Shown here in pieces: positions 3,197-61,928 of a stretch of DNA of 64,000 nt. Under the pieces are notes generated by a model that was not told the DNA's origin, made no database searches, and saw only the letters and a program-made list of their open reading frames with translations. Positions within the stretch are counted from its first letter, which is position 1; each line of letters begins with the position of its first letter. The translations under genes and the position numbers were made by a program. The stretch is from Lamellibrachia satsuma. Its lineage: Eukaryota > Annelida > Polychaeta > Sabellida > Siboglinidae. The stretch covers positions 5,193,501 through 5,257,500 of the forward strand of contig BSQZ01000029.1 in NCBI GenBank assembly GCA_033239005.1. Reading direction: 5' to 3'.

Positions 3197-5031
3197 CTCA
3201 CTTCTTCACTTCCCCTTCCCATAACCCGTAAGGATCGTTGGGGCACCACTGATGACTTTCTAACCAGCTCTCTCCAAGTTTCCCTGTTCTCGACAGCCCT
3301 CTGGGAGTCAGTGAACTCCATTCCTGTCCACTCTTTGATGTTGTCTTCCCATCTCTTCTTCTGTCTACCTCTTCATCTCCCCTCTCTTACAGTACCTTAC
3401 AAGATAGTCTTTGCAAGGCCAGATGATCGTGATACATGACCGTACCACTTCAGTTTATGCTTCTTAACTGTTGTAAGAAGATCGTAATATGGTCCGATGG
3501 CTTGTTTGATCTTGTTGCGGACAGCTTTGTTAGTAACGTGGTCTTTGTATGATATGCGCAAGATCTTCCGAAAGCATCTCATTTCCATGGCTTGTATCCT
3601 TTTCTGTATATCTGCTGAGAGGGTCCATGTTTCAGAAGCGTACAGAAAGATGGACATGACAAGGGAGCACATCAGCCTTATTTTCGAACTGACATTGATG
3701 TTTCTGTCGTTCCATAAGGGTTTCAACCTTGTTAGTGCTGCTGTTGTCTGTGCAATCCTGGCAAATATCTCCGGTTTGGAACCCTCATCTGTGCTAATTG
3801 ATCCCAAAGTACCTGAAGCTTTTTACTGTCTCAAGTCTCTGTCCATTAACTTTGACCTCTGTGCTGATGCCTTGTATGCTGTTTGTCATCAGTTTGGTCT
3901 TTTCGGCACTTCACCAAATTGGCTAGTTCTTGTTCATCTCCTGCTAAGCCATCAATGTCGTCAGCAAAACGAAGGTTGATGATTGTCCTGCCTCCAATGC
4001 TGACAGTGCCTTGATTGTTTCCTAAAGCATCAGTCATGGTCCTTTCCAGAAAAATGTTGAAGAGCGTTGGTGATAGTAGGCATCCTTGTCGAACTCCGAC
4101 TGTTCTTTGAAACCAGTCTCCTATGCTGCTGTTGAAGGTTATTGCACTGGTGGCATTGTCATATAGGTATTCAATGGTTCGGACAAGCTTGGAGCCAATG
4201 TTGTACTTCCACATGGTTGCCCATAGGGCCGCATGCCATACCTTATCAAAGGCCTTCTTGAAATCTATGAAGACATGATACAGGCTTTGCTGATGTTGAA
4301 GGTGTTTCTTGCAAAGGATTCTAAGGTTGAAGATCTGTTCACTGGTGCTCCGTCCTGCTCGAAAACCCGCTTGTTCTTCAGCGATGATCTCTTCTGCCTG
4401 GGGTTTGAGTCTGTTGAGTAGGATCTTCAACATGACTTTGCTCGGGTGGCTGATGAGGCTGATTGTTCTGTAATTTTGGCACATCTGTAGGTTGCCTTTC
4501 TTGAGAAGTGTGATGATCAGTGACTGAGTCCATGGGGTGGGCCATTCTCCTGTCTGCCAGATCTTGTTGCAGATTGTTGTAAGTGTAGTAATCAAAGCTT
4601 CTCCCCCAGCTTGAACCAATTCTGCTGGTATGTTATCAATTCCAGCTGACTTTCCTTTTTTCAGAGACTTTACTGCAGCCTCCACTTCCTCACAAAGAAT
4701 GGGGTAGCCGTCCTCTTCAGTAGTTTGTAGACAATTTAGTACTACTGGGTCTCCGTTGGTGTTGTGGCTGTACAGTTCTGACCAGTATTCTGTCCATCGA
4801 TTGAGGATCTGCTGTTTTTCTGCCAGGCATTTCCCTGATTTGTCTTGGATAGTGGTAGTTATCCCTTTCTTCACTGATGTCAGGTCTTTCACTATTTGAT
4901 AAGCCTTCTTGCTGTTGTTCTTGCTCAAGCTGTCTTCAATTTCACAGCATTGTTCTGCTATCCAGTTATCTTTTGCTCTTCTCATATTTTGTTTGATCTT
5001 CTTGTTGACTTCTCTGTATTTTGCTGCACGT
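3197..5031 (-). mobile_element. 5'-truncated BovB/RTE-like LINE with target-site duplication
   Basis: On the minus strand a 379-residue frame (4985 to 3846) carries reverse-transcriptase blocks in order: SAGIDNIPAELVQAGGEAL, a degenerate NYRTISLISH, QAGFRAGRST, the palm motif FIDFKKAFDKVW, the GVRQGCLLSPTLF block, and the catalytic NLRFADDIDGLAG. A frameshift near 3850 drops some residues. The C-terminal region resumes at 3807-3397 (SETWTL, MEMRCFRKILRISYKDHV, LKWYGHVSR) and runs in another frame to about 3200 (RWEDNIKEWTG, SSVVPQRS). The 5' end is truncated upstream of AAKYREVNKK at about 5030. TTTTACGA flanks both sides, so this is a genuine insertion into the older tandem repeat. Confidence 0.85.
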
Positions 5032-5039
5032 TTTTACGA
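5032..5039. repeat. Target-site duplication, right copy
   Basis: TTTTACGA repeats positions 3189-3196 exactly. The interrupted tandem unit continues directly after it (ATGTCGAAAGAAAAAGACCA). Confidence 0.6.
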
Positions 5040-5635: not shown

Positions 5636-7930
5636 TAAACTAATACCAGTGAGAAACGATTCAAATGTGACACTTGTGGAAAACGCTTTTTTCAGAGTGG
5701 TCGTTTAAGTATACACATGCGCAAACACAATGGGCCTGAACCTTTTAATTGTGATGCTTGTGGAGAACAGAAACATGTGCGTTTCCATCCTAGGGAGAAA
5801 TCCTTTAAATGTGATTACTGTGGTGCACAGCTCAAATGTAGTGCTTGGAAGAACCATGTGCGTATCCATATTGGGGAAAAACCCTACAAATGTGATACTT
5901 GTAGTGCACATTTCACTCAGAGCAATGATTTACTGTCACATATCCGCACTCACACAGGTGTGAAACTCTACAAATGTGATACCTGTAGTGCACATTTCAC
6001 TCAAAGTGATGATTTATTGTCACATATCTTCACTCACACAGGTGTGAAACCCTACAAATGTGATACCTGTAGTGCACATTTCACTCAGAGTGATGATTTA
6101 TTGTCACATATCTTCACTCACACAGGTGTGAAACCCTACAAATGTGATACCTGTAGTGCACATTTCACTCAGAGCGATGATTTACTGTTACATATCCGCA
6201 CTCACACAGGTGTGAAACCCTACAAATGTGATACCTGTAATGCACATTTCACTCAGAGCGATGATTTACTGTTACATATCCGCACTCACACAGGTGTGAA
6301 ACTCTACAAATGTGACACCTGTAGTGCACATTTCACTCAAAGTGTTGATTTACTGTCATATCTTCACTCACACAGGTGTGAAACCCTACAAATGTGATAA
6401 CTGTGGGGTATAATTCTCGGGGAGTAATGATTTACAATCATATAATTATACGCACTCACACAGGTGAGGAAACCTACAAGTGTGACACACGTGGTGCACA
6501 ATTTTCAGAGTAAGCATTTACAGTCACATATGTGCACTCACACAGGTGAGAAACCCTACAAATGTGACACATGTGGTGCACAATTCGCTCAGAGTAGTAA
6601 TTTACAGGTACATACCCATACTCACACAGGTGAGAAACCCTACAACTGTAAAACTTGTGGAAAGCAGTTTTTACGGAGTGATGGCTTATGCCTACACATG
6701 CGCAGTCACAATGGTGCGGAACTGTTTACGCGCAATTCAGGGAGAACAGTTCACATGTAATATTGCTTTGAAGAAACATGTACATATCCATCCTAGGGAA
6801 AATCCTACAAATGTGATACCTGTGGTGCACAGTTTACCCGCAACAGTGATTGAAAAACACATGTCCCTTTCCACACTGGGGAGAAACCCTAGAAATGTGA
6901 TACTTGTGGCACACAGTTTACCCACAATTGTAATTTGAAGAGACATGTCTTAGTCCATACTGGGGAGAAACCCTACAAATGTGATATCTGTGGTGTACAG
7001 TTTATCTGAAATAGTGATTTGAAAACACATCTCTGTTTACATACTGGGTGGGGAGAAACCCTACAAATGTGATATTTGTAGTGCACAGTTTACCCAAAGT
7101 TGTAATTTGAAGAGACATTTCTTAGTCCATGCTGGGGAGAAACCCTACAAATGTGATATTTGTAGTGCACAGTTTACCCAAAGTTGTAATTTGAAGAGAC
7201 ATTTCGTAGTCCATGCTGGGGAGAAACCCTACAAATGTGATATTTGTAATGCACAGTTTACCCAAAGTTGTAATTTGAAGAGACATTTCTTAGTCCATGC
7301 TGGGGAGAAACCCTACAAATGTGATATTTGTAATGCACAGTTTACCCAAAGTTGTAATTTGAAGAGACATTTCTTAGTCCATGCTGGGGAGAAACCCTAC
7401 AAATGTGACATATGTGGTACACACTTCACTCAGAGTGGCCATTTACGGATACATATACGCACTCTCACAGGTGAGAAACCCTACAAATGTGATACCTGTG
7501 GTGCACACTTCACTCAGAGTAGCCATTTACGGTCACATATACGCACTCACACATGTGAGATACCGTACAAGTGTTTTACCTGTGGGGTACACTTCTCACG
7601 GTATGATCAATTACAGTCACATATGTGCACTCACACCGGTGAGTAACCCTACAAGTGTGATCTGTGGTGCACACTTCACATGTGGCACTAATTTACAGTC
7701 ACATATCCGCATTCACACAGGTGCGAAACCCTACAAATGTTTTACCTGTGGGGTACACTTCGCATGGTGTGGTCAATTACAGTCACAAATGTGCACTCAC
7801 ACCGGCGAGAAAACCTTCAAATGAAACATCTGTGATGCACACTTAAACCGCAGTAGTTTACAGTCACTTCTGGTCATGCACACGTGGTAACCCCTACTAA
7901 TGTGACACATGTGGGACACAGTTTGCTGGG
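5636..7930 (+). pseudogene. C2H2 zinc-finger array, frameshifted
   Basis: About 25 or more tandem 84-bp C2H2 fingers follow the C-x2-C-x12-H-x3-H plan with [12 protein letters not shown] linkers, a design that binds DNA in the nucleus. The first finger (CDTCGKRFFQSGRLSIH) starts near 5658. From 5880 to 6330 come about six near-identical fingers (CSAHFTQSDDLLSH), and from 7060 to 7400 about five of another type (CNAQFTQSCNLKRHF). The reading frame is broken. A 2-bp loss near 6357 ends the first frame at 6397. There are further stops or shifts near 6510, 6758, 6892, 7007 and 7045, and the lysine codon of the linker at about 7644 is TAA. No KRAB, BTB or SCAN domain is seen upstream. Either the array is dead or the cause is sequencing error; the number of breaks favours decay. 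Confidence 0.85.
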
Positions 7931-20066: not shown

Positions 20067-20162
20067 TTAATCTTCTTCTTTACCGCGCTTGATGATCTGC
20101 ACGAACTTCAGGTAGTCCAGTTGGCCGCCCTCGATCGGAGCCTCCTTCCATGTTTGTTTAAC
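20067..20162 (-). CDS. RLC exon 7 (terminal coding exon)
   Basis: Encodes VKQTWKEAPIEGGQLDYLKF through RGKEED and the TAA stop at 20067-20069. The acceptor is TTCAG at its high-coordinate edge. It completes EF-hand 4. Confidence 0.93.
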   Translation of the reverse strand, partial: VKQTWKEAPIEGGQLDYLKFVQIIKRGKEED

Positions 20163-20437: not shown

Positions 20438-23400
20438 CGTACACCCGCTCACACACACACACACACACACACGCACGCACGCACGCACATCTGCCCACAC
20501 ACGTACACACGCGCGCGCGCGCGCGCGCACGCGTGTACACCATAAGCAGGCTATGCATCTAGACTGTATCTGTCTATTCTTGGCAGGTCCGCTAACATAT
20601 CGGTTTATTCATTGACCTGTGGATTAGTATCTGGACTACACGTACCTCATCTTTGCTGAACTGGTCACCGACATTCATGAGCAGATCTTTTACGCTGCAA
20701 AGCAAAAATGATACTAAGTCGGAGGGCAACATTCACCAGAATATCGTTTACTGGAACCTTTGAAACAATATTTGTGACTCACAATTACTGTACGTATTTA
20801 CTCCGCTAAAGCCCCCAAACACCCCTTTCTGGCTGAGGTCCCTAGCTTTCCCTAGGTTTCACACGTAATCTGACATTGTAAAATAAATTTGCTGAGGACA
20901 CATGGAACTACATAACGGCCCCCAGTTTGGGAACCCCTGATGTAGAAAACTACACTTTAATAATGATATTAGTAATGCAATTTCTAGGATTTTTATAGTT
21001 GTAGACTAAGACATCGCTAACCAGAGAGTGTGTTTACGATCGGTACGATCGTTGTGGAAGATAACTCAACTATAGTAAATTTACTATTCCACAGTTCCAC
21101 CTCCCCAACTCTTCCACAATTCCGCCTCCCCAATTCTTCCACAGTTCCACCTCCCCAACTCTTCCACAGTTCCGCCTCCCCAACTCTTCCACAGTTCCAC
21201 CTCCCCAACTCTTCAACAGTTCCACCTCCACAACTCTTCCACAGTTCCACCTCCCCAACTCTTCCACAGTTCCACCTCCCCTCCCCATACACCCTTCAAG
21301 TTCAATTCTCCTGCTTCCTCCCTTTGACCATGCCCTCTTCCCTGGACCCATATGTCCCTCCATGACTCTGCCACTACGTTCTTTGTCTTCCTTCATTCAC
21401 GATCATTTATTTAAAGCTATCCTGCTAGTAAAGCCTAAAGCATAAACTACATACACCTTTCTTAACGTCAACAGGTAATACATTAATATCAACTGAAACT
21501 CTTAAAACACAAATGTCACTTTCAATAATTTACGTCTACATAACAATTAGTCACCATGATAACATGTTATCATCGAAAAAATTATGCTTTATCATATAAG
21601 TATTCAGTTGAATTGATTTCTACACGCAGTAAGTAAACACCCACGATAATTACAACTTGGTTTTTAATTTGAATAATTATCGTTGTACCAGCCTTTTTTG
21701 TTTACAAGACACGACCAATACTGATTTAAAGCTACCTCGGCAATTCAATTTGTCGCTCGTCTAATTTTATAAAACATCGAACCTTTCTTGTATCCACTAT
21801 GATATGCTGGTTTCAGCAAATGTCTTATTTCGTTTAGACGCAATAATCGGACAATAATGTCGGTTCGGTCTAATCTAAATTCGACAAAAAAAGAGAGCAA
21901 AAGTGGCTACGGGAGGCCCACCTCTATATACAAAACCACGAGGTTAATCACACTTTCGCAAGTTACCCCATGTTACGATAAAAGTAAATTCTTTTGAGGA
22001 TTTTAACAAAAGGACGCATTGATTTTATAAACAAGACTGCGCATATTACATTAAGCTATTTACACACACCACGTGCTTAGATATCGAAGGACCTGATTCA
22101 CGATGAGCTAATTGAATTGCGCGGGCAGCTTTATGACTAGCGACCAAATAGCAAAACACTTACAACTCTTCCGACAGCTGGCCCTTGCCTGACTCGTCGA
22201 ACATCGCGAAGGCATCTCTTAACGTGTTCTCGGGGTCTGTGCCTGTTGGGACCACCAGATGGCGCATCAGTGACATCGCTCGTACACCCAACAGACATTG
22301 GGTTAATGGCGAAAGTATACCTCTAACGTGTACCAATTTACTCAATGAAGTTTTTATTTCGTTTTTTATTTCCATCAGCGAGTTCTTGTTTCATACCAAA
22401 CGCATAAAGCATTTACTACTGGATATGTTACCAATTGCGTAATTTGACATGTTGATATCAGGCGTTCAATTAAACACTTAGTCGTCATACGTCATACGTG
22501 TGTGTTTAATCAATAGCATCGTGTTTCACACCGTCTTGACATATAATTTCCAGCAGTACGCTGTCACATCAACAATTCGAATAGCTGAACAAAAGTTGGA
22601 CGAATTCAAAACAAAATCGACACATAAACTGTACAACTTATATAAATTAAATATTGTTAACAGCTTAGACTAAAGGCAACCGGAATGTCGCCCCTACGGT
22701 GAAGCAATGTTAACTAATTATTAACTATGTTATTGATATTGATCTAAATTCGACACATTTCACCAACAAATTGCACTAAAACGCTCTACGTAAAATCAAA
22801 TAATAGTAAAGAGAAAAATGAGTTACTTCGTATGATGAAAACTATTTGACGACGTAACACACTATGCGAAAATGCAGTAACAGTGTAACACACCTACCGA
22901 CTCAGGAAACTGAATCAGAAGTGGGCGCTAGGGAGCCCTGGCGTCTGGTCGCACCATTACCGTCAAACGAGTAACGAAAACAAAACTGCGTGCAAAATAA
23001 GACAGGTGCAGATCGCAAGGTTATCGCGTTTAGTTGGACACAGAGTGGCGAGGTAGGCATACACACGTACACACGTACACAACTGCTACAGATGGACGAA
23101 GAGGGAGAGACAGAGAAAAGTGTAAGTGCGGCGGTGTGAAACTACTACACAGGGCATGCAACCGGCGAGGCAACCGGGCTGAACGATAGGTGTACCCACA
23201 ATGCAACTGGCAATCCAAAGTTAAGACAGAAACGGTGGCTTCAAAATTTAATCATTTCAAAAAGCGCGTTGGCTTTGCAAAAATAAGAACGAATTTCCAA
23301 TAAATTATAAACGTAAAATAACGTACCGACTTTGTAGCGATGGTTTAGCTGATGTCTTACGCGACGTGAAAACGTTCTCATAAATGTATTTTCGTTCACT

Positions 23401-25418
23401 GCACGGAGAGTGGTTATTTTAGAATTTCGACACATTAGCAACGTAGAACAATTTTAATAAGCTTTTATTTCATCCGACCTAAACTCACCTTTTACTTTTT
23501 CACCAAATAACATAAGGAACATTGTAAAGTTGAGAGGGCCGGGTGCTTCCTTTATCATTGTTTGCAACATCTTGTAGTCGGGATCACGCCCTGCAATAGG
23601 GGTTACAGGTAACACATGTCACGTGGTATATCATACACAGCAGATCATTCACAGCACGCGCATGCGTCGACATGACGTCATCCTTAGAAGCCCGGATGAT
23701 CGCGCACGCGGAAACGGAAGTCAGTTCCAGCGCGCCCCCTGGCGAGGCAGGTATCATCCGGCGCTATGTCGACACGTCCAGTTCTGGAAAAACGACTGTG
23801 TCGGACGGACTGGAAAACCCTCTTTTGGTTATAATAACCATCCAACTACCGAGTTATTTTTCAACCAGGTTAAACCAAGGGTAAACGGGGTTTCATGGGG
23901 TTTCGTTCGGATTGACAACGTCAGGCAAACGCAAAATGAAACGGCCAGGTTTCATTTCGGAAGAAAACGGAAGACGGCGGGGCAGAGAATCCATGCGTGA
24001 AGCAAGCGTCATGCCTTCATCTGCCGGCAGAGGGCAGCAGCGGCGGCAGCGAGCAAGAGCGCCCGGCCATCTCTTACCATGAAGCTTTTCGCCGAATAAT
24101 GTTAAGAAATGTGTGAAGTTCAGTTGGTTAGGTGACTCCTCCATCATCAATTTCAGTTGTTTAGGGTCGGGTTCTCGGCCTGAAATGGGTCGCACATAGA
24201 AAAATGCATACGGGTCATCAATGTTCGTTTTCTCCAACGACCGAACAAGTCTTAACAAAGTACACACAGCAGCCGCAAGACACACGGAAGTCTGCTCTTG
24301 TACCCCGATTTTGAAGCTTTTACGAGTCTGAGACTAAGTTGCGAAAACGAAGACACGAAGACCCAACTCTCAGTTGCTGACGTTAGTTGTTTTCATTAAA
24401 TGTCGATGTTTTGTTCCGATATCCAAGAATAGCCAACGACTATGATTTATTATCACAACCACCGACGCGATAGGCCAAGAACGAAAACAACATTATATGC
24501 TAGTAAAATTGTACGCATTGGATTTTGATTATATATTGTATAGAACTTTGAGCAATATGTCGATTCTCAAAGCGTCAAATGTAAAACAGATAACTGCACG
24601 AATCAAATATAAAACAGATAACTGCACGAATCAAATATAAAACAGATAACTGCAAGAATCAAATAGTCTTGCTCTTACAAACAGGTGAATATAATAACAT
24701 ATTAATAAATAATAAATAAACAGAACAGCTAAGATTTTATCCCAGACAGTTATTTTATAAAAGAAATCTACCCTATCATGTGAACTGTTTTTCAGAATAG
24801 CCTTTTTTTGTGACGGAAAAATAATGTTTTCGATTTTGATTTAATTGTCACATTGCAGAATGTCACGTCTTGTGTCCTGAAGAACAAAGAAGTACAACAA
24901 CAACACGATGCGAAGTACGTATCATGTAACAACGACAGTCCTGGCATGTTACTACTAAGACGGTATGTAGTTACACCATACAGTTGCCTTAAGAGAGGCA
25001 CAACGTGAAATCAAATCTTCATCTATGTACTGTTGTATAGTATAGAGCGGCATCACCGGTTATCGTGGCGATAACCCAGCGCACGTATAATACATTCTGG
25101 GTCTGACAGCACCAAAGAAAACAGAATAGATGGAAAGGGAAGAGGTGAAAGTAAATGTTGGAAAACAAGGAATACAGGCAGGGATGACGAGAAATTGGTG
25201 AAGAGGAGAGAGGTCGTGAAGAATGAAGTGTGAGAGGGGAAAGGCGAAAGAAGAAAGACAGAGAGGAAGATTTGTGAAGAGAGGGGTGGAGGGAGGGAGG
25301 GGGAAGAGAGAGGGGAGAGGGAGAGAGAGAGGTGGGATAGAGGGAGAGAGGGGAACAGGGAGATTGGGAGAGAGATAGAGAGAGAGAGAGAGGGGGGGGA
25401 GAGGGAGAGGGAGAGGGA

Positions 25419-25451
<33 letters not shown>

Positions 25452-28400
25452 GCAGATAGTAATATAATAATAATATAATAAATAATAATATTGGTCGTAA
25501 CCTTGTGACAGTTTTAGTAGGCTGGGAATGTAACTTACCGGTTTGCTGGAAAATACATCCCAGATCTTCAGTGTCGATGATACCGTCCCGGTTCTGATCC
25601 ATCATTGTGAACGCCTAGACAGGAACGAGAGCGCACACATTCTCATTTCAATTTATAAAACTGACCCACAATGTGCAGTAAGAATAGAACAGTCACCAGA
25701 ACAAATTAGCTAATGGCTGCTGTCAGCAATTTGGCGAACGATGTTGATATCGGGATAACGCATTAAAGTTATCCTGAAATTAAGAGCAGCAGCAGCAGAT
25801 ATTATTGATATAAACGAGTAACGTTTCCAACATTGAATGGACAATTTCCTTCAATATTCTCGTACGTAAAGTAAACGGGCTTTTTCCATAAGAGACGTTA
25901 TATCTTCAAACACGCACTTCGAGGAACCAATGCTAACATCGATGGTCCAGCGTCTGATAGTTTATGTTGTAAAATAATTTCACAGTATCAGTGATATGTA
26001 TTCTTTACCGCCCAAATGTGTTTGTGAGAATAATGTTTCTTTAGTCATATAATTTTAGTTTTATGGGAAATATGAATGTTTCGTCCCGAATTTCATGTTT
26101 ACATTTCATGCTGAACGGCAAGGCAAGGTCGATACTTACAAACAGATAACGACATTTAAGCAAGTCAAGGTGTTAGACTATTGTTACATAGTTCATACTA
26201 GGATAAGATAACTATCAGACTTTGCACCTGTTATACCATATTCAAAACTAAACGAGGCCCTTCGAAAACCCACCTCTTTGAACTCCTGAATCTGGGCCTG
26301 GTTGAAGAGCGCGAACACGTTGGACGTAGCCCTTTGTGCTCGCTTAGGCTCCTTGGGTTCATCTCCGGCGCCATCAGCAGCGTCATCCTTCTCGGTCTTA
26401 TCCTTCTTCTTGCTCTTCTTCTCCTTCTTGCTAGACTGTAGCGTGAGAAAGTACGACGTCAGTGAGTTGTCTTTACACACACGTACACATCATGGCTTTC
26501 TGTTGGAGGCTGCGGTGATATTAAAGCTGGCAACGCAAATCGAATTTTCGTTCGTCTCATTTCAGACTAATTTCGCAAAAATCAAACCAACCTAGTATCG
26601 ACTAGCATCGACGAATGCGTTATATAATTTTGATAAAAATCATGACCATTAACACTTTCACAAGTTACCCAATATAACGATGAAAGTGCTATTTCATTCG
26701 ATGATTTTAACAAAAGTATTATTAAACAGACTGCGCGCATCACTTTAACTATTCACACACGTCAGATATGAACATCAACGAACCTGGTTCGCGATGGACT
26801 GAATGAAATGACGAGGGAGCTTTAACGGTTCACATTAAACATACACGCTTTCCTCTACGTGTACAGTTTATACTTATCATTAATGTATGGCATTGTATTG
26901 ATGGCCGTACGACAAAGCTGGGGTGTAGTGTGTGTTTGGAAAGAAAAATGACGAACGAGAACATATAAAATGGTTAATAATCGAAAAGAAGAGACTACTT
27001 TTTCCGGTGACCTAGTTGCGATGACCTAGTTACGATGACATGCATGTGACAGGTAGATGATAGTCAAAGATGTTGCATAATACTATAATTTTGTCTTGGT
27101 GACGACGATGATGATGATTATGGTAACTATAATGTAAAAGAAAGCAACGTTGTTGATGTCGATGAGCTGTCATTAATATTCATCCCTCTAAGAGTGAATG
27201 TATTATTGTAAGTGACAAGAATAAAGAACATGCATCTGTCTACACCAACGATTAGCTAATATGTGGTGCATTAGTAGAAGTATTAGCAACGTTTTGACAA
27301 CATTTGATATGTCATAGTATTAAGAATATCTTACTGTGATAGCTCATTTATTCTTAAATGTGTATAATTCGTTAAAAAAATGTTGGATATTACTAAATTA
27401 TTTATCGGGTCCTATTGGACACAGTTCTGCTCCCATGACGAGCAATGCGTTACTGAACACATCCTCCTGTAAACGTCGATGACACTTAACTTAATAACTT
27501 AACTTTATAAAACAACCATGTATTCAGGTTCCCTAATTTGGATTAAATACTAAGACAATGTTTTAAACCATCCTCGCATTTTGCTTATTCACCAGTCGTG
27601 TTCCCGTTTGGAACTTATCAGTAGCAAAAGTACAAATGTATTGCAATTTGAATTCACGTAACCTTGATAATATTAATAGCATGTATATCCCCTGCGCGTT
27701 TACCCCACCTCCGTACAGCCCGCTGTTTGTCTGAGATGTCTACCGAGTATCAACGTCAGTTTATGTCTGTCTACATTCCGCGCCGGGCACAGCTGCAGAT
27801 TATCTCAACTACGGCAGCTATTTTTCAGTTAACGGTAGTCTCGAGTATCAAGATCTGCAAACGCCCGTATTGGCCAATGGTGTCTTATATTCGTTGACTC
27901 ATCGACAATTTATGCACACTCAGGGGTGACTAACATCATGTTGTATTGAGGTATATATCAGTAGCAATGTCAAACCTTATGGGATAGGTTATTCTGTTTA
28001 AAACGAACAATGAAACAACGCAATGTGTTTAAATATCGCGGAAGTTGACGGTTTCACTAGTTTTATTATTTGTTATGCAAATAACAGAAATCATAAACTA
28101 ACTATTTATAAAACGAGTTGTGCATAATTGAAACAATTTATCAATACCATAGAACCAATTGTAGAGAAAATATGACTGTACGAGATAACTATTTATTAGT
28201 AGCTACATTTACTGCACTTTTCTTTATAACGGACACCTCTCTGCATAGTCAATTTAGTCTTATTCCTAGCGCTGACCGCATCTCACGGGTTTCATCGAAC
28301 ATTGCACTTCGAACCATGTACTTGATAGCGTAAACATGTTCGATTATGACCAAATCTATAGTAATAATCCGCCGCTTTCTCCCGCCTGGATAACGTGGGA

Positions 28401-31400
28401 GCAAACAGGATGAATCGAGGCATTCGGAAATAGTTTAGTTTCATGTTACGCCAAGGAGAGTCATTGTCTCCAGTTTCCGGAGGCATGAACAAGAACCACT
28501 AAGACGAGATGCATGTTCCCACCAATCTTCAGGTACGTGTACTCTAACGCAGTACACCTGGATAGTTTCGACGTACCAAGTCGAGCCACCTATACCCGTG
28601 GTAGTTTGCCTCCACCTCACCCTTGGCGGAACTTCTAAATATGAGCGATTTTGAACCGGCAATCTTTCACGGAAGTTTAATATTTGTATTATACACGAAT
28701 CTTCAGCTGAAACTGTCGGTCTTTTTCTAGAGCATTTAAAATATTATGAATTACATTATTTGAAACAGTTCTGGCAGCTCACCGATGTATATTCACCAAC
28801 CAAGATGGCTTCCCAGCATATGTATGTGGGTCTCGGTGTTACCCTTGAGAATTTTTTTCTTTTGTATTTCGCACAGTTATGCTGTCTTCCGATATCACGA
28901 CAAAACAAGTAAGAATACAAGAATTACAACGTAACGACCGAAAAACGACTTACCATTTCGGCTGGTTGAACTACAATATCCTAAAGGAATGCCAGATAAC
29001 GGAATGCTGTCCCCTCGTCCGCCGCGAAACTCCCCGAAATGCCAAGACTGCGCCCGAACGCTGGCAGCAGAGGCTGTTCTTCTAGGGGCCGAAACGTACC
29101 GGCGTCATCGAGCCAACCAGAGGGCGAGCTGGCGCTGGGATCTTTTCCCGGCGCCTGGGGTTCACGTAATCAGAGGAAGGTCGCCGCCGTCGCTACCTTC
29201 GAAGACCATGTTTGGTTCGTCGGCGCCACGCCGGGTCAACAACATCTCCACGGGGAGGCGGGGTGCCATCGGCAGCTTTAAAGCTGCACAAGCACAGCCA
29301 CATTGTTCGCGTGCAGCCTTTGAACAGTACTAAACGCGCCCAGATGGTAGTCAACGCAGTTTTGCGTGATTCGCACGACAACAGCGTTATTTTGTGTTGA
29401 CTTCCCGATCCGACGCACCCTACGCGTAAAATGGTTTCTCCCATTTCCTGGAGCGTGAGTTCACCAACAGGAGAAATCTGTCGACTGGCGCTGATGGGTT
29501 CGGTACAGGAGCGACTTACGCCATGTCTTTCACCACCAGCCAGCCATTCCCAGGCGTACTAAGTTAGGTTCACGACACGGATTCTTCCAGACCACGTATT
29601 CTCTCAGTAATACTAACTTATGACTGAAGACTCCCGCAATCCAGTTGATGAAGTTTGCACTATTTTTTCGACACAACGCTTCAAATACTAGTTAACCGTG
29701 CGGCGAAAATAGAACTCAAAATTTTAGAACTAGTTAACAGTTATCTGGCAGATAATTAAACTATTATAAATGATCAGCAGTTTTGTTTAATTCGTCATAC
29801 AAGGTTGATGGAATTGTCGTTAGCCCACTATAACTAAAACCGAAGCTTTTTGATGAATTAGCCCGGCTAAGTATAGCAGTGGCCATTTGTAATAATGTAC
29901 ACGCATTTTAAAAGAATATAACACTAACAATGCTTCATTCAAGGGACATTTAAGAACATTCGTGCTTGTTTCATCCGATAGACCAGGTACGTATCATATA
30001 TTGCCGTATAGTGTAACAAGTCTCCCTTATAGACGTGCATCATTCCCCGAGAGAAACCGGATCACAGACATCGCCACCCTATTGGCGCCTTTCTGGTGCA
30101 GTCTGGAACATGTGGCGACCATCAACATCGGGGCCTGGTCGAAATACGTCGCAACCCTCTATGACGTCTGCGGGGTATTCTGAGCCTGTATCCACGGGAG
30201 GGAACTAGGCAGGTGTTGCACAGGAGCGTCTCAGCGTCTCAAATATCCATAATAAGACTTCTGTACTTCAAATCCAAGATTTCTTAGCTTTTTAATATTA
30301 TTATAAATTATTATTATTAATATTGTCATTCAGGTAATTGAATAGAGAAATATATAAATGTCCGGCTATGACTTGGTTAAGTGTCCTGTTGTTGACATAG
30401 GAACATGAGTTTTCCAATGGGAAGGCGAGGCTGATCTACCATTGATATGTTAGTGCCAATAACAATAGAATTGGTGATGAGGGATTGCGAGGTAAGGTTA
30501 CCTCTTAGATCACACCACCTACTTCGTCTTCCGGATAAGGCTAGACCCCATTAAATACCACAAAAGACGATCTGGTGGCAATTACGCCATCTTTATTCCT
30601 CAACTAACCCAAACATGTACCCGGGTTTCCACATATATTCCGAGGCCATACATCGTGATGGTGCTATGCGAAGGCAGGTTTCCATGACCACGAGTTCGTA
30701 ACTATCCCAGACATAGTCAATCAGCCGCTGTACTGTGCGCGCTCTGTCTGGAAGATGTGGGAATGTTGATATGCCTTTAGAATCAGCTGCCATATTCCGG
30801 AAGCACTTTTTAATACTAAGGTTTGTTGAAAATTACCCCGGATGAAAGTACTAAGCCATTAATATATCGAATTGATTCGGCACAACATTTTTACTCTTTA
30901 GCCAACAATAATACTAGTTTACACAACGTATGCCAATGTTGACTCTGTATATATAGGTTGATATACTGTTGTTCAGGAATTCCCTCAAAATAGTCATTCT
31001 GATATCGGCATGGTACAATTCAATCAAATATGATACTTAGACGTCACAAACGTGACGCATTACCATATACGGATTAGGCAATTCCCACAGACGCATATTT
31101 CCCATATTTTCCATTCCCCATCAAATCATATGTAGATAATCCCAACGTTTGACGCCACGGATATCAGCAAACCCGTTGTCGGTTCATAATACTTTACGTT
31201 GTGTAATATATATTGTTTTGTAAAGTTAGACCCGAATTTTAAATCAGGCGTGGAGATAAAATGCCCCCTTTTCTTGTCCCATAACTAGAATGTGGGTATT
31301 TTTTTAATCTGAGATAAACAAATATTCCGAAATGCTCTGGCGATAAGACACACTCAGTACGAATTACCCATTGAATGGAACTTTACCTCCGAGGCGTGTT

Positions 31401-32663
31401 TCTCCCGACATACGTCAGACACTTTGAATTAATTACAATTGACAGATGATTACAAACATTGATTATTCCTGTCGGACTGATCAAGCTAACTGGCTGGTAT
31501 CGGCTGCAGATTAGTATTACGTGCGACTGAAGTGATACGCCTCCAGACGCCTGCAGATTAGTTCATACTGTGCATGGCATATAGAAACAAAAAAGAAAGA
31601 CACAAACATTTCTCGGACTGGGAGACCTATATAAGGCTGCACAATCGTTTGTGGTCTAGGCTTACGAGAGGAAGCAAGTCGGTATTTTGCCTCTGTATTC
31701 ACGATTAGCGAAGCATGTGCCGCAGATTATGAGATATATATGCTCAATGAGTTTAACGATTACCCACGTAAAGTAGACATACCGCATAATTTTACAAGTT
31801 GCTAAGGGTCGTGTAAAGACACACCCCAGTTTCCTTATTTAATGTCTAATTGCCCTTGGTGGGGATTGATATCGTACACTACCAGAAACCAAATATGTTA
31901 TCTAAATACCCGGCCTCACAGCCATCATATGTCTGAATATCTACTCCGAGGGAACAAGACACAGCATAATTCCGCGAGATTCCAACAGGACAGACATCGA
32001 AATATGTGCTTTAACTTATGGAATGGGGATATGCATTGTTTCCTCACAAATAATCGAACGTATTGGAAAATTGTGATGTTTGGATGAACGGAAAGTTAAA
32101 TATATAATCGCATATAACTAGGAGGATACGAAAAAAGTTCCTATGCGGACGTACAAGACTGATTGTTGTGGTGCCATCTATGGAATATTGAATGAATTAC
32201 TCTTTATAAAGTTACTGTTTAAAACGCTTATCCTAAGTAGGTGAAAATACATAGCGCATCTCCCGGTAAGCAAGTGTCCTTCCTTCAGAACTGCACTACT
32301 CCGCTTCTGTGCAATCGGGTAATTCAACGGCAGATATGTTGTTGGTATTACATTGATATGTCCACTGTGTGGCGCCACTATTCGTCATACTTTTCACACG
32401 ACAAATCAGTCCGTCATTCCTGATCAACGTTGCCACTGTCCACAACGTTGTCTCGTGTTCTAACTTTATGTTCATATAAAAAGATTTTTTTTATTTATCC
32501 AATTTTCACAAATGAAGACAACAAATGTTGACTGCAGCTATGTACGTATATAGGCTTAAAATGTAACACTATAATAGCTGATCGTTGGTGTTTTATTAAC
32601 GTCACTGAACCGAAGTAAACTAACATAACAAGATAAAACGTCGCTTACCTTGTCTTCACCCAT
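20067..32663 (-). CDS. Myosin regulatory light chain, 7 coding positions, 192 aa
   Basis: This is the regulatory light chain of muscle myosin II. It wraps the IQ helix of the heavy-chain neck and controls or tunes contraction. The joined exons (15, 162, 76, 102, 79, 49 and 96 bases, all GT-AG with agreeing phases) give 192 residues plus stop. Order: a Lys/Glu-rich N-terminal extension (about residues 5-37); the kinase-type site QRATSNVF (about 41-48), with adjacent phosphorylatable Thr and Ser; EF-hand 1 with a complete divalent-ion loop DQNRDGIIDTED; a degenerate EF-hand 2 segment chosen from two exons; EF-hand 3 (FAMFDESGKGQL); and EF-hand 4 ending KEAPIEGGQLDYLKF and RGKEED. The usual length is 150-175 residues, and the extension explains the excess. 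The start is the ATG at 32661-32663 (MGEDK). A likely acceptor (TCTGTTGTAG) seven bases upstream of it suggests a separate 5' UTR exon at higher coordinates that I cannot place. Confidence 0.93.
20364..20535. repeat. Compound microsatellite in RLC intron 6
   Basis: (ACGC)n at about 20367-20440, (AC)n at about 20453-20472, a short ACGC run, then (GC)n at about 20509-20528. It occupies about one third of the 483-base intron between exons 6 and 7. Confidence 0.95.
20646..20694 (-). CDS. RLC exon 6
   Basis: A 49-base exon: one base plus 16 codons, VKDLLMNVGDQFSKDE. Acceptor TTTGCAG, donor GTACGT. The phase matches exon 5 (2) and exon 7 (0). Confidence 0.92.
21088..21285. repeat. 25-bp minisatellite, ~8 units, in RLC intron 5
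   Basis: The unit CAGTTCCACCTCCCCAACTC plus TTCCA repeats with few changes. The plus strand is pyrimidine-rich, so the RLC transcript carries a purine-rich (GGGGAGGTGG) run here. Confidence 0.9.
21945..22135. repeat. Intragenic ~190-bp repeat, copy 1 (RLC intron 5)
   Basis: It shares ordered blocks with 26640-26832: CACTTTCNCAAGTTACCC, then GATTTTAACAAAAG, AGACTGCGC, a TTCACACAC-like block, ACCTGRTTCNCGATG and CAGCTTTA/GAGCTTTA. It lies about 30 bases beyond the donor of exon 5. No coding frame is conserved. Confidence 0.65.
22164..22242 (-). CDS. RLC exon 5
   Basis: A 79-base exon, GTDPENTLRDAFAMFDESGK and on to SEE, covering the central helix and EF-hand 3. Acceptor CCCAACAG, donor GTAAGT. 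It starts in phase 1, compatible with either alternative exon 4, and ends in phase 2. Confidence 0.93.
22243..23488. other. RLC intron 4, no recognised feature
   Basis: AT-rich intron of about 1.25 kb between exon 4B and exon 5. A CACGTACACACGTACACAAC run near 23062-23082 is the only short repeat noticed. Confidence 0.5.
23489..23590 (-). CDS. RLC alternative exon 4B
   Basis: A 102-base exon encoding GRDPDYKMLQTMIKEAPGPL and NFTMFLMLFGEKVKG, the EF-hand 1-2 linker and EF-hand 2. Acceptor ATTGCAG, donor GTGAGT. It starts and ends in phase 1 like exon 4A. It lies second in transcript order, 487 bases after 4A. Twenty of the 34 residues encoded match 4A. Its APGPLNFTMFL block is the usual striated-muscle-like form of the family. 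Confidence 0.9.
23591..24077. other. Intron between the two alternative RLC exons
   Basis: A 487-base spacer that is more G+C-rich than the other introns, with CpG-containing text around 23690-23790. A 125-codon plus frame crosses it without any recognisable domain. Confidence 0.45.
24078..24179 (-). CDS. RLC alternative exon 4A
   Basis: A 102-base exon encoding GREPDPKQLKLMMEESPNQL and NFTHFLTLFGEKLHG, the same protein segment as exon 4B. Acceptor CATTTCAG, donor GTAAGA; phase 1 at both ends. Equal length and phase mean either exon yields an intact 192-residue protein. Including both would add 34 residues and duplicate EF-hand 2. Mutually exclusive use is the natural inference. Confidence 0.9.
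24575..24665. repeat. 28-bp x3 tandem repeat in RLC intron 3
   Basis: AAAACAGATAACTGCACGAA occurs three times with one change. Confidence 0.9.
25240..25455. repeat. Polypurine/polypyrimidine tract in RLC intron 3
   Basis: About 200 bases of GA-rich plus-strand DNA become a (CU)-rich tract in the RLC pre-mRNA. It begins about 85 bases after the exon 3 donor and precedes the alternative exons 4A/4B. Such tracts bind PTB-type splicing repressors in other genes, which is a possible role here. Confidence 0.8.
25539..25614 (-). CDS. RLC exon 3
   Basis: A 76-base exon, AFTMMDQNRDGIIDTEDLGC then IFQQT, containing the whole EF-hand 1 loop with Asp at positions 1, 5, 9 and 12 and Gly at 6. Acceptor CTGTCTAG, donor GTAAGT, end phase 1. 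Confidence 0.93.
26274..26435 (-). CDS. RLC exon 2
   Basis: A 162-base, 54-codon exon encoding the basic extension (SSKKEKKSKKKDKTEK), the phosphorylation block RATSNVF, and FNQAQIQEFKE. Acceptor GCTACAG, donor GTGGGT, phase 0 at both ends. Confidence 0.93.
26640..26832. repeat. Intragenic ~190-bp repeat, copy 2 (RLC intron 1)
   Basis: Direct-orientation partner of 21945-22135, about 200 bases upstream of exon 2 in transcript sense. Block order is preserved with roughly one quarter of positions changed by eye. Confidence 0.65.
26833..28979. other. RLC intron 1, distal-3' part
   Basis: AT-rich intronic DNA without a recognised element. Open frames such as 28662-28441 on the minus strand have no family signature. 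Confidence 0.4.
28980..29340. other. CpG-rich island inside RLC intron 1
   Basis: A block rich in CpG (CCGCCGTCGCTACC, GGCGCCACGCCGGGTC) stands out in a long AT-rich intron. It could be an internal promoter for a shorter RLC transcript or an unrelated CpG island. Frames on both strands are open but show no domain. Confidence 0.4.
29341..32648. other. RLC intron 1, 5' part
   Basis: About 3.3 kb with no recognised gene, repeat array or RNA. CTATATAAGGCTGCAC near 31628 resembles a TATA box on the plus strand, but nothing downstream supports it. Confidence 0.4.
32649..32663 (-). CDS. RLC exon 1 (start codon exon)
   Basis: Encodes MGEDK only, followed by donor GTAAGC. The exon probably begins at 32670 after an acceptor-like TGTTGTAG, making it an internal exon with seven bases of 5' UTR. 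Splitting the first few codons from the body of the protein is common in muscle light-chain genes. Confidence 0.8.
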
Positions 32664-32670
32664 GTTGATT

Positions 32671-39632: not shown

Positions 39633-40134
39633 TTGGTATGACTCAAGACGTCATGAACGCGGTTTTTTTTTGACGCGGCAACCTGATTGGTCAGACGAAT
39701 TACATCTTTATTCCACTGTACACTTTTCAACGCATACGGTGTCGGTCTGTGTGAAACTATATAGTGAAAAATTTACAGTAGTATTTCTAAGAACATTACA
39801 TTATTACTATATAATTGCACATAACCTTTGTTAAGGTCACCACTGATATTTTGTAGGAAACCGAATGCCACCACACGGTCGAAGTCGTTAACCAGGTCAG
39901 GTGATGCAAGGTCAGGTATCTTGGTCTGGTCAATAAAGTTCTCGTAGCCGAGGGGCAGGCCGACGTACAGTCACCTGCCTTTGCTGCGTGGCTGCTGCGG
40001 GCGTTCTTAGCTAGACCCCAACGAAACACGTTTGATCCGAACCTTCCCACACCTGTTTGAAGGCAATTCTGGAGTGCTCAGGCCCGACGTGATCGGTGGT
40101 GAAAGGCATCAAAGGAAGTCATTGACATGTCACT
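39633..40134. other. No supported gene
   Basis: A minus-strand frame (about 39960-39836: GLPLGYENFIDQ, DFDRVVAFGFL) looks protein-like and ends at a donor-like GTTATG. Its frame is preceded by TGA with no acceptor, so it is not called. Confidence 0.3.
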
Positions 40135-44414: not shown

Positions 44415-45298
44415 CCGACACATCTGCTCCAGATCGGCCCTTGTCTTTAGCCGCATGCTGATCTGCTGCAGGTCGGCCCTTGTCTTTAGCCGCATGCTGA
44501 TCTGCTGCAGGTCGGCCCTTGTCTTTAGCCGCATGCCGATCTGCTGCAGGTCGGCCCTTGTCTTTAGCCGCATGCCGATCTGCTGCAGGTCGGCCCTTGT
44601 CTTTAGCCGCATGCCGATCTGCTGCAGGTCGGCCCTTGTCTTTAGCCGCACGCTGATCTGTTGCAGGTCGGCCCTTGTCTTTAGCCGCACGCTGATCTGC
44701 TGCAGGTCGGCCCTTGTCTTTAGCCGCACGCTGATCTGCTGCAGGTCGGCCCTTGTCTTTAGCCGCATGCCGATCTGCTGCAGGTCGGCCCTTGTCTTTA
44801 GCCGCACGCTGATCTGTTGCAGGTCGGCCCTTGTCTTTAGCCGCACGCCGATCTGTTGCAGGTCGGCCCTTGTCTTTAGCCGCACGCTGATCTGCTGCAG
44901 GTCGGCCCTTGTCTATAGCCGCACGCTGATCTGTTGCAGGTCGGCCCTTGTCTTTAGCCGCACGCTGATCTGCTGCAGGTCGGCCCTTGTCTATAGCCGC
45001 ACGCTGATCTGTTGCAGGTCGGCCCTTGTCTTTAGCCGCACGCTGATCTGTTGCAGGTCGGCCCTTGTCTTTAGCCGCACGCTGATCTGCTCCAGATCGG
45101 CCCTTGTCTTTAGACGCACGCTGATCTGTTGCAGGTCGGCCCTTGTCTTTAGCCGCATGCTGATCTGCCGCAGGTCGGCCCTTGTCTTTAGCCGCATGCT
45201 GATCTGCTGCAGGTCGGCCCTTGTCTTTAGCCGCATGCTGATCTGCTGCAGGTCGGCCCTTGTCTTTAGCCGCATGCTGATCTGCTGTAGGTCGGTGT
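44415..45298. repeat. 39-bp minisatellite, ~22 units
   Basis: The unit GATCTGCTGCAGGTCGGCCC plus TTGTCTTTAGCCGCATGCT repeats with a handful of recurrent variants (CACG/CATG, CTGC/TTGC, TTTAG/TATAG). As 39 is divisible by three, a 345-codon frame stays open on the plus strand (44374-45408) and 13-residue RLKTRADLQQIS repeats appear on the minus. I regard these as by-products. The array abuts a LINE reverse-transcriptase relic. Confidence 0.95.
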
Positions 45299-50895: not shown

Positions 50896-53739
50896 GTGCA
50901 GGGGGGTTACCTAGAGGTGTCTCAAGCAGAAAAAGAGGCCACTAGCACAGATAAACCAATATCAAATCATCCGAAAAACATCTCTGAAAAAGGTTATAGA
51001 TGCGTATGCTTAAATGCAAGGAGCATAGTAAATAAGAAAAACGAATTAAACATTATGGTAGAAGATACTGACCCTCACATAATTGGTATAACTGAATCAT
51101 GGGCTAACATAGATGTAACAGATGCTGAATTAGGACTGACAGGATATGTAATGTTTAGTAAAGATCGAATAGGAAGAAGGGGCTGGGGAGTTATTTTATA
51201 TGGTAAAGAATCTATTCAGGCTTATGAAATAAAGCTAGAAAGGGAAGCAGATTGCGATGAAGCTGTTTGGTGCAAAATTGTTCCAGGAAATTCAAAATTA
51301 ACTATTGGATTAGTTTACCGAAGTCCAAACATAAACGAAGAGGACAACACAAAAATAAACAACGCTATAAAGGAAGTTAGTTATGGGGAATGTATCATAA
51401 TGGGAGATTTTAACCATGGACACATACAATGGAATTCTCTAGAGAGCACAGGGATTGCAATTTCTATTTTTAATCCAGGATAGCTTTCTCACTCAGCACG
51501 TACTAGAACCAACCAGGGGAGAAAATGTATTAGATATAGTTTTGTCATCACAAAAAGAATTAGTGGACAATGTAAAACTATTTGAACCATTGGGTAATAG
51601 TGACCATAATCAAATACATTTTGACATCAATGTAAAATCAGAAAGTAAAAATAAGAAAACGTACAAGAGAAACTTCCACAAAGGTAACTACAAAGATATG
51701 AGAAAATACTTAGCAAAGCTAGATTGGAAAAACATGCTGATGAATAAGACTGCAATTGAATGTTGGAATATTCTAAAATATGAAATTGAGAGTATCATCG
51801 ATAAATGTGTTCCTTTCCAAAAACAAGGAAAACTTTGTAGAAAGAAACACTTGTCAAAAGAGGCAATTAGAAAATAATGCTAAAACAAACTATGTGGAGG
51901 GTTTATAGGCGTACCAGAAAGGAAGAAGACTATGCAAAATACAAAGAGGCACTTAATGCAGCTACAACTGAAATCAGACAATCTAAAAGAAGCTATGAGC
52001 AAAAACTAGCATGTAACATAAAAAATGACAGCAAGAGTTTTTATGCATATGTCAGGAGTAAACAAAACGTACAAGACAAGGTTGGACCTCTAGAAGACAG
52101 TGCTGGAAATATAATATCACAGGGGTTTTTAATGGCGGAAGACCTAAATGTTTACTTCAGTTCAGTGTTTACCAAAGAAGATATTAGTTCATTACCAGTT
52201 GCTGATGATAAATTTCAGGGGGATAAATCTGACTAATTAGGTCCGTTAGTTGTAACTCCAGAATTGGTAGCTAAGAAAATAAAGGCAATGAAGGATAACA
52301 AATCACCGGGAGTGGATGGAATTCCTCCAAATTTACTAATGGAAACAGTAGAACAAATCAGTATACCACTTGCAAGAGTATTCAACTTGTCATTAAAAGA
52401 GGGAGTTGTTCCGTTTGAATGGAAAGAAGCAAACCTCATACCATTATTTAAAAAGGGTTCGAGAAATAAGTCAGAGAATTACAGACCAGTGAGTTTAACG
52501 TCAGTGATTTGTAAATTATTAGAAAGCTTAATTAAAGACAATATGGTGGACTTCCTCGTTAAGCATACATTATTAAATTCATCTCAACATGGATTCCTTA
52601 AAACGAGGTCATGCTTAACAAATATGTTATGTTTTTTGGAAGAAATCACTAAGTGGATAGACGAGGGATCGCCAGTAGATATTATCTACTTAGATTTTCA
52701 GAAAGCTTTTGACAAAGTGCCACATCAAAGATTACTACTTAAATTAAAAGCCCATGGTATCGGGGACAGCATAACTGACTGGATAGAACAATGGCTGACT
52801 GACAGAAGACAACGAGTTGTAGTAGATGGAGAAGTTTCAAATTGGAAATCGGTTTTGAGTGGGGTACCTCAAGGATCAGTTTTAGGACCTATATTATTCT
52901 TAATTTATATCAATGACTTGGACGACAGTATAACAAGTAACGTACTGAAATTTGCGGATGACACAAAACTGTTTAGAAAGGTTAATACTGATGGTGATAA
53001 ACAACATTTACAAAACGATCTAGACAGATTAGTGAAATGGTCTGAGAAATGGCAGATGCTGTTCAATCTTGGGAAATGTAAATGCCTACATACAGGACAT
53101 GAGAACTTGAATGTAAACTATAAAATGGGAGATACTGTTCTGGGTACTACTGTAAAAGAAAAGGACTTAGGAGTTACAATAAGCGCTGATATGAAAGTTT
53201 CAGAGCAGTGTGGTATTGCAGCTTCAAAGGGTAATCAAATTCTTGGATTGATTAGAAGAAACATAACATACAAGGGAAAAAAGTTAATTATACCTCTTTA
53301 TAAAGCAATAGTTAGACCTCATTTAGAATACTGTATACAAGCATGGAGACCATATCGTAAGAAGGATATAGAGAGAGCAACTAAAATGATTCCAGAACTG
53401 AGAGACCTTAGTTATGAAGAACGCCTGAAAGAATGTGGTTTAACAACTCTAGAGACAAGGAGGTTAAGAGGAGATCAGATTGAAGTTTTTAAGATATTGA
53501 ATGGGTATGAAAATATTTATAGAAATATGTTTTTCTCACTCAAGAAGGATAGCAGAACTAGAGGACATGAGGTAAAATTAGTAAAGGATCAATGTAGATT
53601 GGACATCAGGAAGCACTCGTTCTCACAGAGGACAATAAATGAATGGAACAAATTGTCTACAGATTGTGTAACTGCTAGCAGCGTGAATATGTTTAAAAAC
53701 AAGGTTGACACATATATCAGGAGGGCGGGTTATAAGTAG
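50896..53739 (+). CDS. CR1-like ORF2 (endonuclease + reverse transcriptase), broken in four pieces
   Basis: The endonuclease nicks target DNA and the RT copies the RNA onto it. The endonuclease shows LNARSIVNKKNEL, ITESW, VYRSPN and MGDFNHG (about 51010-51420). After a small deletion and stop near 51480 it ends with SDHNQIHF (about 51599). A linker is cut by TAA at 51875 and 52234. The RT is one frame, 52264-53739, with SPGVDGIPPNLL, YRPVSLTS, LDFQKAFDKVP, GVPQGSVLGP, and FADDTKLF at about 52950 as the catalytic pair. The C-terminal thumb region includes AWRPYRKKDIERATKM and SFSQRTINEWNKLS. Apart from the breaks, the length is normal for the family. Confidence 0.88.

Positions 53740-54704: not shown

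Positions 54705-61928
<7,224 letters not shown>

Follow-up and report, generated by a model that had tools for sequence, protein, structure and literature searches.

Animals tune their muscles through many myosin genes or through alternative exons within one heavy-chain gene. Kollmar and Hatje (2014, PMC3912159) document mutually exclusive exons in the myosin heavy chains of annelids and molluscs and describe seven clusters of such exons in the heavy chain of Capitella; the term "light chain" occurs 0 times in the main text of that paper. The initial annotation of the DNA analyzed here had named mutually exclusive exons as well known for the heavy chain of molluscs and insects. For the regulatory light chain (RLC), separate striated and smooth/non-muscle genes are described in Platynereis (PMC5167519). 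No report of alternative or mutually exclusive exons in an RLC was found in the titles and abstract openings searched, a scope outside which most subscription papers lie. The comparisons presented here indicate that the deep-sea siboglinid tubeworm Lamellibrachia satsuma and related annelids probably switch part of this myosin regulator by splicing.

The window, by which we mean the whole 64,000-nucleotide stretch of L. satsuma DNA that was analyzed, encodes a protein that matches the 218-residue L. satsuma entry "Myosin regulatory light chain, striated muscle, 25 kDa" with 100% identity over 99% of the query. The next named match among those listed was Riftia pachyptila Q9GUA2, with 94% identity over 90%. 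Two sequence searches of the PDB placed scallop and vertebrate RLCs on top (from E 1.6e-57 and 5.6e-55), Pfam EF-hand families were found in the L. satsuma gene model (P0001) and in the relative P0028, and the window product has both the overall sequence and the EF-hands of an RLC. A RATSN motif and a basic N-terminal extension can be read in exon 2. Judged by its sequence, the gene is a striated-type muscle RLC, with predicted binding to the heavy-chain neck and predicted N-terminal phosphorylation.

All exons of this gene lie on the minus strand. Gene structure and matches within the animal's own genome place exon 2, which contains the basic extension, the RATSN motif, and the beginning of helix A, at 26274..26435, exon 5 at 22164..22242, exon 6 at 20646..20694, and exon 7 with the stop codon at 20067..20162. 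Exon 3, which encodes EF-hand 1, lies at 25539..25614, as placed by gene structure and by tblastn of the window, where it has one copy. Two alternative start exons were recognized: exon 1a (32649..32670), with the MGEDK start used in P0001, P0002, and P0003, and exon 1b, whose start codon (ATG/gtaagt, 28954..28956) gives MSSKK, the sequence that also starts P0004, P0005, and P0010. Together with an upstream exon at about 40059-40109 (minus strand), which is read as coding in the L. satsuma model P0001 and is probably 5' untranslated, the two start exons (MGEDK and M) suggest alternative promoters. Elsewhere, the window contains a C2H2 zinc-finger-like array of 84-base repeats (5639-7844, from repeats and ORFs judged by eye), ORFs that resemble non-LTR reverse transcriptases by eye (3846-5033 on the minus strand, 52237-53739 and 56716-57654 on the plus strand), and a 39-base tandem repeat of 22.4 copies with 95% matches that is open in several frames (44422-45295).

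Two versions of exon 4 lie between exons 3 and 5, also on the minus strand. Exon 4A (24078..24179), an A-type exon with the sequence EESPNQLNFTHFLTLFGEKLHG, was identified by its splice sites and frame and is the version that appears in both the L. satsuma model and Riftia Q9GUA2. Exon 4B (23489..23590), a B-type, ancestral-like exon with the sequence KEAPGPLNFTMFLMLFGEKVKG, was identified by its splice sites and frame and was found once in the animal's own genome. The initial annotation had given coordinates, a length of 102 nt, phase 1-1, and sound splice sites for both exons, all of which proved correct, the sites being GT-AG. Its proposal that either exon fits between exons 3 and 5 also held, as each choice yields an open 188-residue protein; the two products differ at 14 residues, every one of them in exon 4, in keeping with its count of 20 identical residues of 34. 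Among the changed stretches that it had named, EAPGPL in 4A stands, and EESPNQL in 4B does not, the proper alignment being ESPNQL against EAPGPL. The two exons are homologous, alike in length and phase, and adjacent, being separated by a single 487-nt GT-AG intron (23591..24077, minus strand).

The splice sites of both exons appear sound. The donors agree with MAG/GTRAGT, the splice donor consensus, at 7 of 9 positions in 4A and at 9 of 9 in 4B, and pyrimidines make up 14 (4A) and 13 (4B) of the 20 bases preceding the acceptor AG. When the 4A peptide was searched against the window with tblastn, 4B was matched at E 2.1e-11 and the following place at E 0.87, so the likeness of the two exons is far from chance. 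Their nucleotide identity at the three codon positions is 22, 27, and 13 of 34, respectively, which indicates that the exons diverged while the protein sequence was constrained and that third positions are close to random. Exon 3, exon 5, and exons 6-7 showed no further copy in the window when each was queried alone by tblastn; exon 2 was queried as part of the whole protein.

The own-genome searches covered an assembly of 735,336,914 bases in 279 contigs. The DNA of exon 4A matched only itself (E up to 0.001), and a 37-residue 4B peptide matched four places (E up to 5), namely 4B, 4A, and diverged light chains on contigs C15 and C55. When the whole protein was used as a query (44 places at E up to 1, with all 59 first-pass candidates scored), exons 2, 3, 4A, 4B, 5, 6, and 7 were each found once, and the C15 and C55 paralogues were matched together with weaker places on other contigs. 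No related DNA loci were found among viral contigs or bacterial and archaeal genome contigs. The C15 paralogue has its exon-4 and exon-5 segments in a single uninterrupted frame with no intron between them; in that on C55, the exon-4 segment is split by an intron. Directly before the acceptor of the real C55 exon lie two partial copies of the exon-4 core, about 10 codons each and in other frames (C55:1838412-1838490, L008), which we read as a tandem duplication that aborted in the very segment of the protein duplicated here. Both paralogues look smooth/non-muscle-like when their sequences are judged by eye. Complete duplication of exon 4 is therefore a feature of the striated-type gene.

Relatives were taken as 196 different proteins chosen by likeness to the window gene (the best 120 of 2029, of 2109, and of 205 matches), and each of those listed has at least one exon-4 motif, a count that refers to protein records and not to splice junctions. 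A search for the same exon pair in other lophotrochozoan RLC loci had been proposed with the initial annotation, and the pair is indeed present in a gene model from Paralvinella palmiformis and in further genomic-looking ORFs. In the Paralvinella model (P0004, on a 235,861-base contig), an A segment and a B segment are joined in tandem; that is, the gene predictor included both exons. ORF P0138 contains A and then B about 321 nt apart, ORF P0139 contains a non-typical first copy and then B about 165 nt apart, and ORF P0177 contains B, preceded about 234 nt away by an apparent A in a shifted frame (read by eye). These three ORFs look like unspliced DNA because of the foreign sequence between the copies and the size of the contigs.

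The strongest datum for an alternative exon 4 comes from two transcripts of one annelid-like transcriptome set, P0012 (GHVO01028573) and P0028 (GHVO01028581). Their flanks are identical at 165 of 165 residues, their exon-4 segments are identical at 21 of 33, one being A and the other B, and there is no difference elsewhere. Overall identity is 94% between P0028 and P0012 and 88% between P0012 and P0044 of Capitella teleta; the exon-4 segments of P0028 and P0044 are identical. Transcript pairs of this kind could in principle derive from recent gene duplicates in which divergence or gene conversion is confined to exon 4, with no splicing involved, and pairs whose flanks fall short of 100% identity may come from paralogues or sister species. 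This explanation is extremely unlikely in our estimate, given that P0012 and P0028 match everywhere outside exon 4, that the genome of the window has both exons in one gene at one locus, and that Paralvinella has both in one gene model. From these results, we conclude that the status of 4A and 4B as alternative exons is well supported.

A simple typing rule was applied to 199 exon-4 motifs from the 196 proteins listed and assigned 161 to A, 21 to B, and 17 to neither type (P0177 among the last), counts of sequences that do not represent an expression ratio; P0004, P0138, and P0139 each have two motifs. In a tree of 203 segments, a branch with SH-aLRT support of 88-90 sets apart 162 A-type rows, including that of the window. 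The same side takes 12-13 rows of other types and 0 of the 25 B-type rows, which include 4B of the window, scallop, and human MYL9. In a smaller tree of 25 rows, seven A-type rows and P0143 group together (94/92), B-type rows do not separate from scallop, and no branch is starred; both trees rest on 35 columns. Because A-type rows separate from B-type rows on the tree, type A appears to be derived, with a single origin, and 4B looks to have kept an ancestral-like sequence from which 4A departed. It also follows that the exon pair arose before the lineages of Lamellibrachia, Paralvinella, and P0012/P0028 diverged. Lamellibrachia and Paralvinella both belong to Sedentaria.

The L. satsuma gene model, Riftia Q9GUA2, and the close siboglinid-like proteins P0002 and P0003 are all of type A, and no 4B transcript from Lamellibrachia or Riftia is present among the relatives listed. 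This pattern is what would be seen if 4B were disused or nearly so in siboglinids, as an old exon kept in the DNA of animals whose adult tissue uses A only. Exon 4B, however, has no stop codon, a donor that fits the consensus fully, and a normal acceptor, and it is still 83% identical to its nearest relative, P0177. We consider disuse of 4B unlikely, although it deserves more weight than an origin of the transcript pairs by gene duplication.

The position of variation along the protein was scanned in 191 proteins (18,145 pairs), with the window isoforms, P0001, and the genomic-looking ORFs P0138, P0139, P0175, and P0177 excluded. A pair was counted when one exon was ≤76% identical and the remainder ≥95.5%, using the exon limits of the window gene. 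Exon 4 differs in 25 pairs, 9 of them disjoint, which is the most of any exon; exon 3 differs in 9 pairs (5 disjoint), exon 5 in 5 pairs (1 disjoint), and exons 2 (core), 6, and 7 in 0 pairs. A sliding scan with 16 segments of 33 residues at a step of 8 gave the same picture, with the exon-4 segment on top at 25 and its neighbors at 14 and 2. Only 2 of the 9 disjoint exon-4 pairs (P0012/P0028 and P0023/P0187) set A against B, the other pairs being A-like variants, and some near-identical pairs may be sister species or paralogues. Near-identical RLCs that differ mainly in exon 3 were also observed (P0098/P0119, P0028/P0044, and three further pairs); between P0098 and P0119, 14 of 25 exon-3 residues differ, and 126 of 127 residues are identical elsewhere. 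These cases hint that exon 3, and with it EF-hand 1, may also be swapped in some lineages.

As we picture it, each transcript would join exon 3 to exon 5 through either 4A or 4B. A product with both exons (222 residues) and a product with neither (154 residues) are each in frame, so the reading frame does not enforce exclusivity. If the two exons were independent cassettes, the longer light chain containing both would be a real product, and Paralvinella P0004 does join both. P0004, however, is a gene model and not a transcript, and it is the sole spliced-looking protein with both exons among the 196 relatives listed; in addition, the N-lobe would probably be disrupted if the helix C/D unit were present twice. 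We regard independent cassettes as very unlikely, and the choice between 4A and 4B as probably mutually exclusive.

No device for exclusivity was found in the 487-nt intron, the splice sites (every one of which is GT-AG), the reading frame, or intron pairing. An inverted-pair search run without a shuffle control listed 25 of 27 pairs, with arms of 11-23 nt at 75-92% identity apart from one pair that was an exact 11-mer. Intron pairing was rejected as the device because RNAduplex scores were not above random: for the six pairs of intron pieces examined, 14 to 37 of the 40 first-order random sequences used for each were equal or better. As intron size, splice-site class, frame, and intron pairing give no explanation, the choice of exon would be set by splicing regulators, and exclusivity imposed by such regulators alone would leave no trace in these features. 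The 4A-4B intron has 3 copies of the motif GCATG, an RBFOX-type core, where the mean is 0.64 (8/300), and TGTGT in the 4B-5 intron stands at 15/300, the lowest values among 18 tests (6 motifs × 3 introns); both are weak leads, and no clear motif emerged. Intron 3 contains a long pyrimidine-rich (CT) tract upstream of exon 4A (25160-25441) that could bind PTB-like factors; the PTB-motif count in this intron is not above random. The same intron contains a 28-base repeat of 3.2 copies (24575-24665), about 400 bases before 4A, whose units end like a 3' splice site (TTCGTGCAG, minus strand).

AlphaFold models of P0012 and P0028 were of low confidence (mean pLDDT 60.4 and 59.3; pTM 0.34) and served for helix limits only. 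Secondary structure is alike in the two models, in which exon 4 comprises residues 92-124 and spans two helices, C (96-104 or 96-105) and D (112-123 or 112-122), together with the B-C and EF-2 loops. A PDB fold search with the P0028 model ranked RLCs first, with a TM score of only about 0.3. In a homology model of human MYL2, residue R58 lies in the B-C helix loop that forms the RLC-RLC interface and also takes part in contacts between the RLC and the heavy chain (PMC5469618). The RLC-RLC interface has been called critical to the folded-back state (PMC11944230), and its loosening has been described as an activation step (PMC13089345). Human MYL2 was matched over chain residues 5-166 to query residues 29-188, and R58 should correspond to R82, which the first complete codon of exon 4 encodes, provided that no gap precedes it. 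The initial annotation had placed the changed residues where the light chain contacts the heavy chain and the neighboring head. The part of this claim that stands is that exon 4 starts at the B-C loop, which the homology model puts at such contacts (PMC5469618); on the other side, R82, the putative R58 equivalent, is arginine in both 4A and 4B, and all 14 changes lie downstream of it.

The two light chains would be identical except in one part of the N-lobe, made up of the B-C loop, helix C, the EF-hand 2 loop, and helix D. A swap of this segment could alter how the N-lobe packs onto the neck of the heavy chain and, in folded-back heads, against the partner RLC, and the altered packing and off state might in turn tune relaxation and activation between muscles or stages. 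A switch between smooth and striated muscle, which had also been proposed, is unlikely because the RLC genes on C15 and C55 look smooth/non-muscle-like, which would make smooth and striated RLCs the products of separate genes. No result obtained here points to a role in catch muscle. Taken as a whole, we think it likely that a tandem duplication gave rise to an old pair of alternative, mostly mutually exclusive exons, chosen by regulators, that retune the N-lobe of the RLC. If this is true, splicing retunes myosin-linked regulation itself, in a segment that starts at the RLC-RLC interface loop, and the pair amounts to a natural experiment, in which helices C and D alternate between two states while the background stays constant, for probing the function of the RLC N-lobe.

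The heavy-chain clusters described by Kollmar and Hatje (PMC3912159) resemble the RLC pair in that homologous exons, similar in length and phase, stand in tandem within an annelid gene for a myosin subunit; they differ in that the clusters vary the motor, whereas the Lamellibrachia pair varies the N-lobe of the RLC. The Platynereis genes (PMC5167519) share with the exon pair the theme of RLC diversity between muscle types. That diversity consists of gene copies, as it seemingly does in the Lamellibrachia genome as well (C15 and C55), whereas the exon pair adds variation within the striated-type gene. Tropomyosin isoforms of tarantula (PMC2674065) likewise differ only within a single segment, as would fit a pair of alternative exons, but tropomyosin belongs to the thin filament, unlike the myosin-linked regulation exerted through the RLC; the two tarantula RLCs in that report are 56% identical overall and so are not an exon pair of the Lamellibrachia kind. 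More speculatively, the whole N-lobe of the annelid striated RLC could be a module under splicing control, with two or more interchangeable versions of exon 4 (EF-hand 2) and, in certain lineages, of exon 3 (EF-hand 1); in combination with the heavy-chain clusters, it would determine the off state of the thick filament for each muscle from single genes, an extension that we offer as a possibility with the balance somewhat against it. Set beside these systems, we conclude that the Lamellibrachia locus presents a known phenomenon, the exon pair, in an RLC gene for which we found no earlier report, with an old origin and with direct transcript support in one other source.
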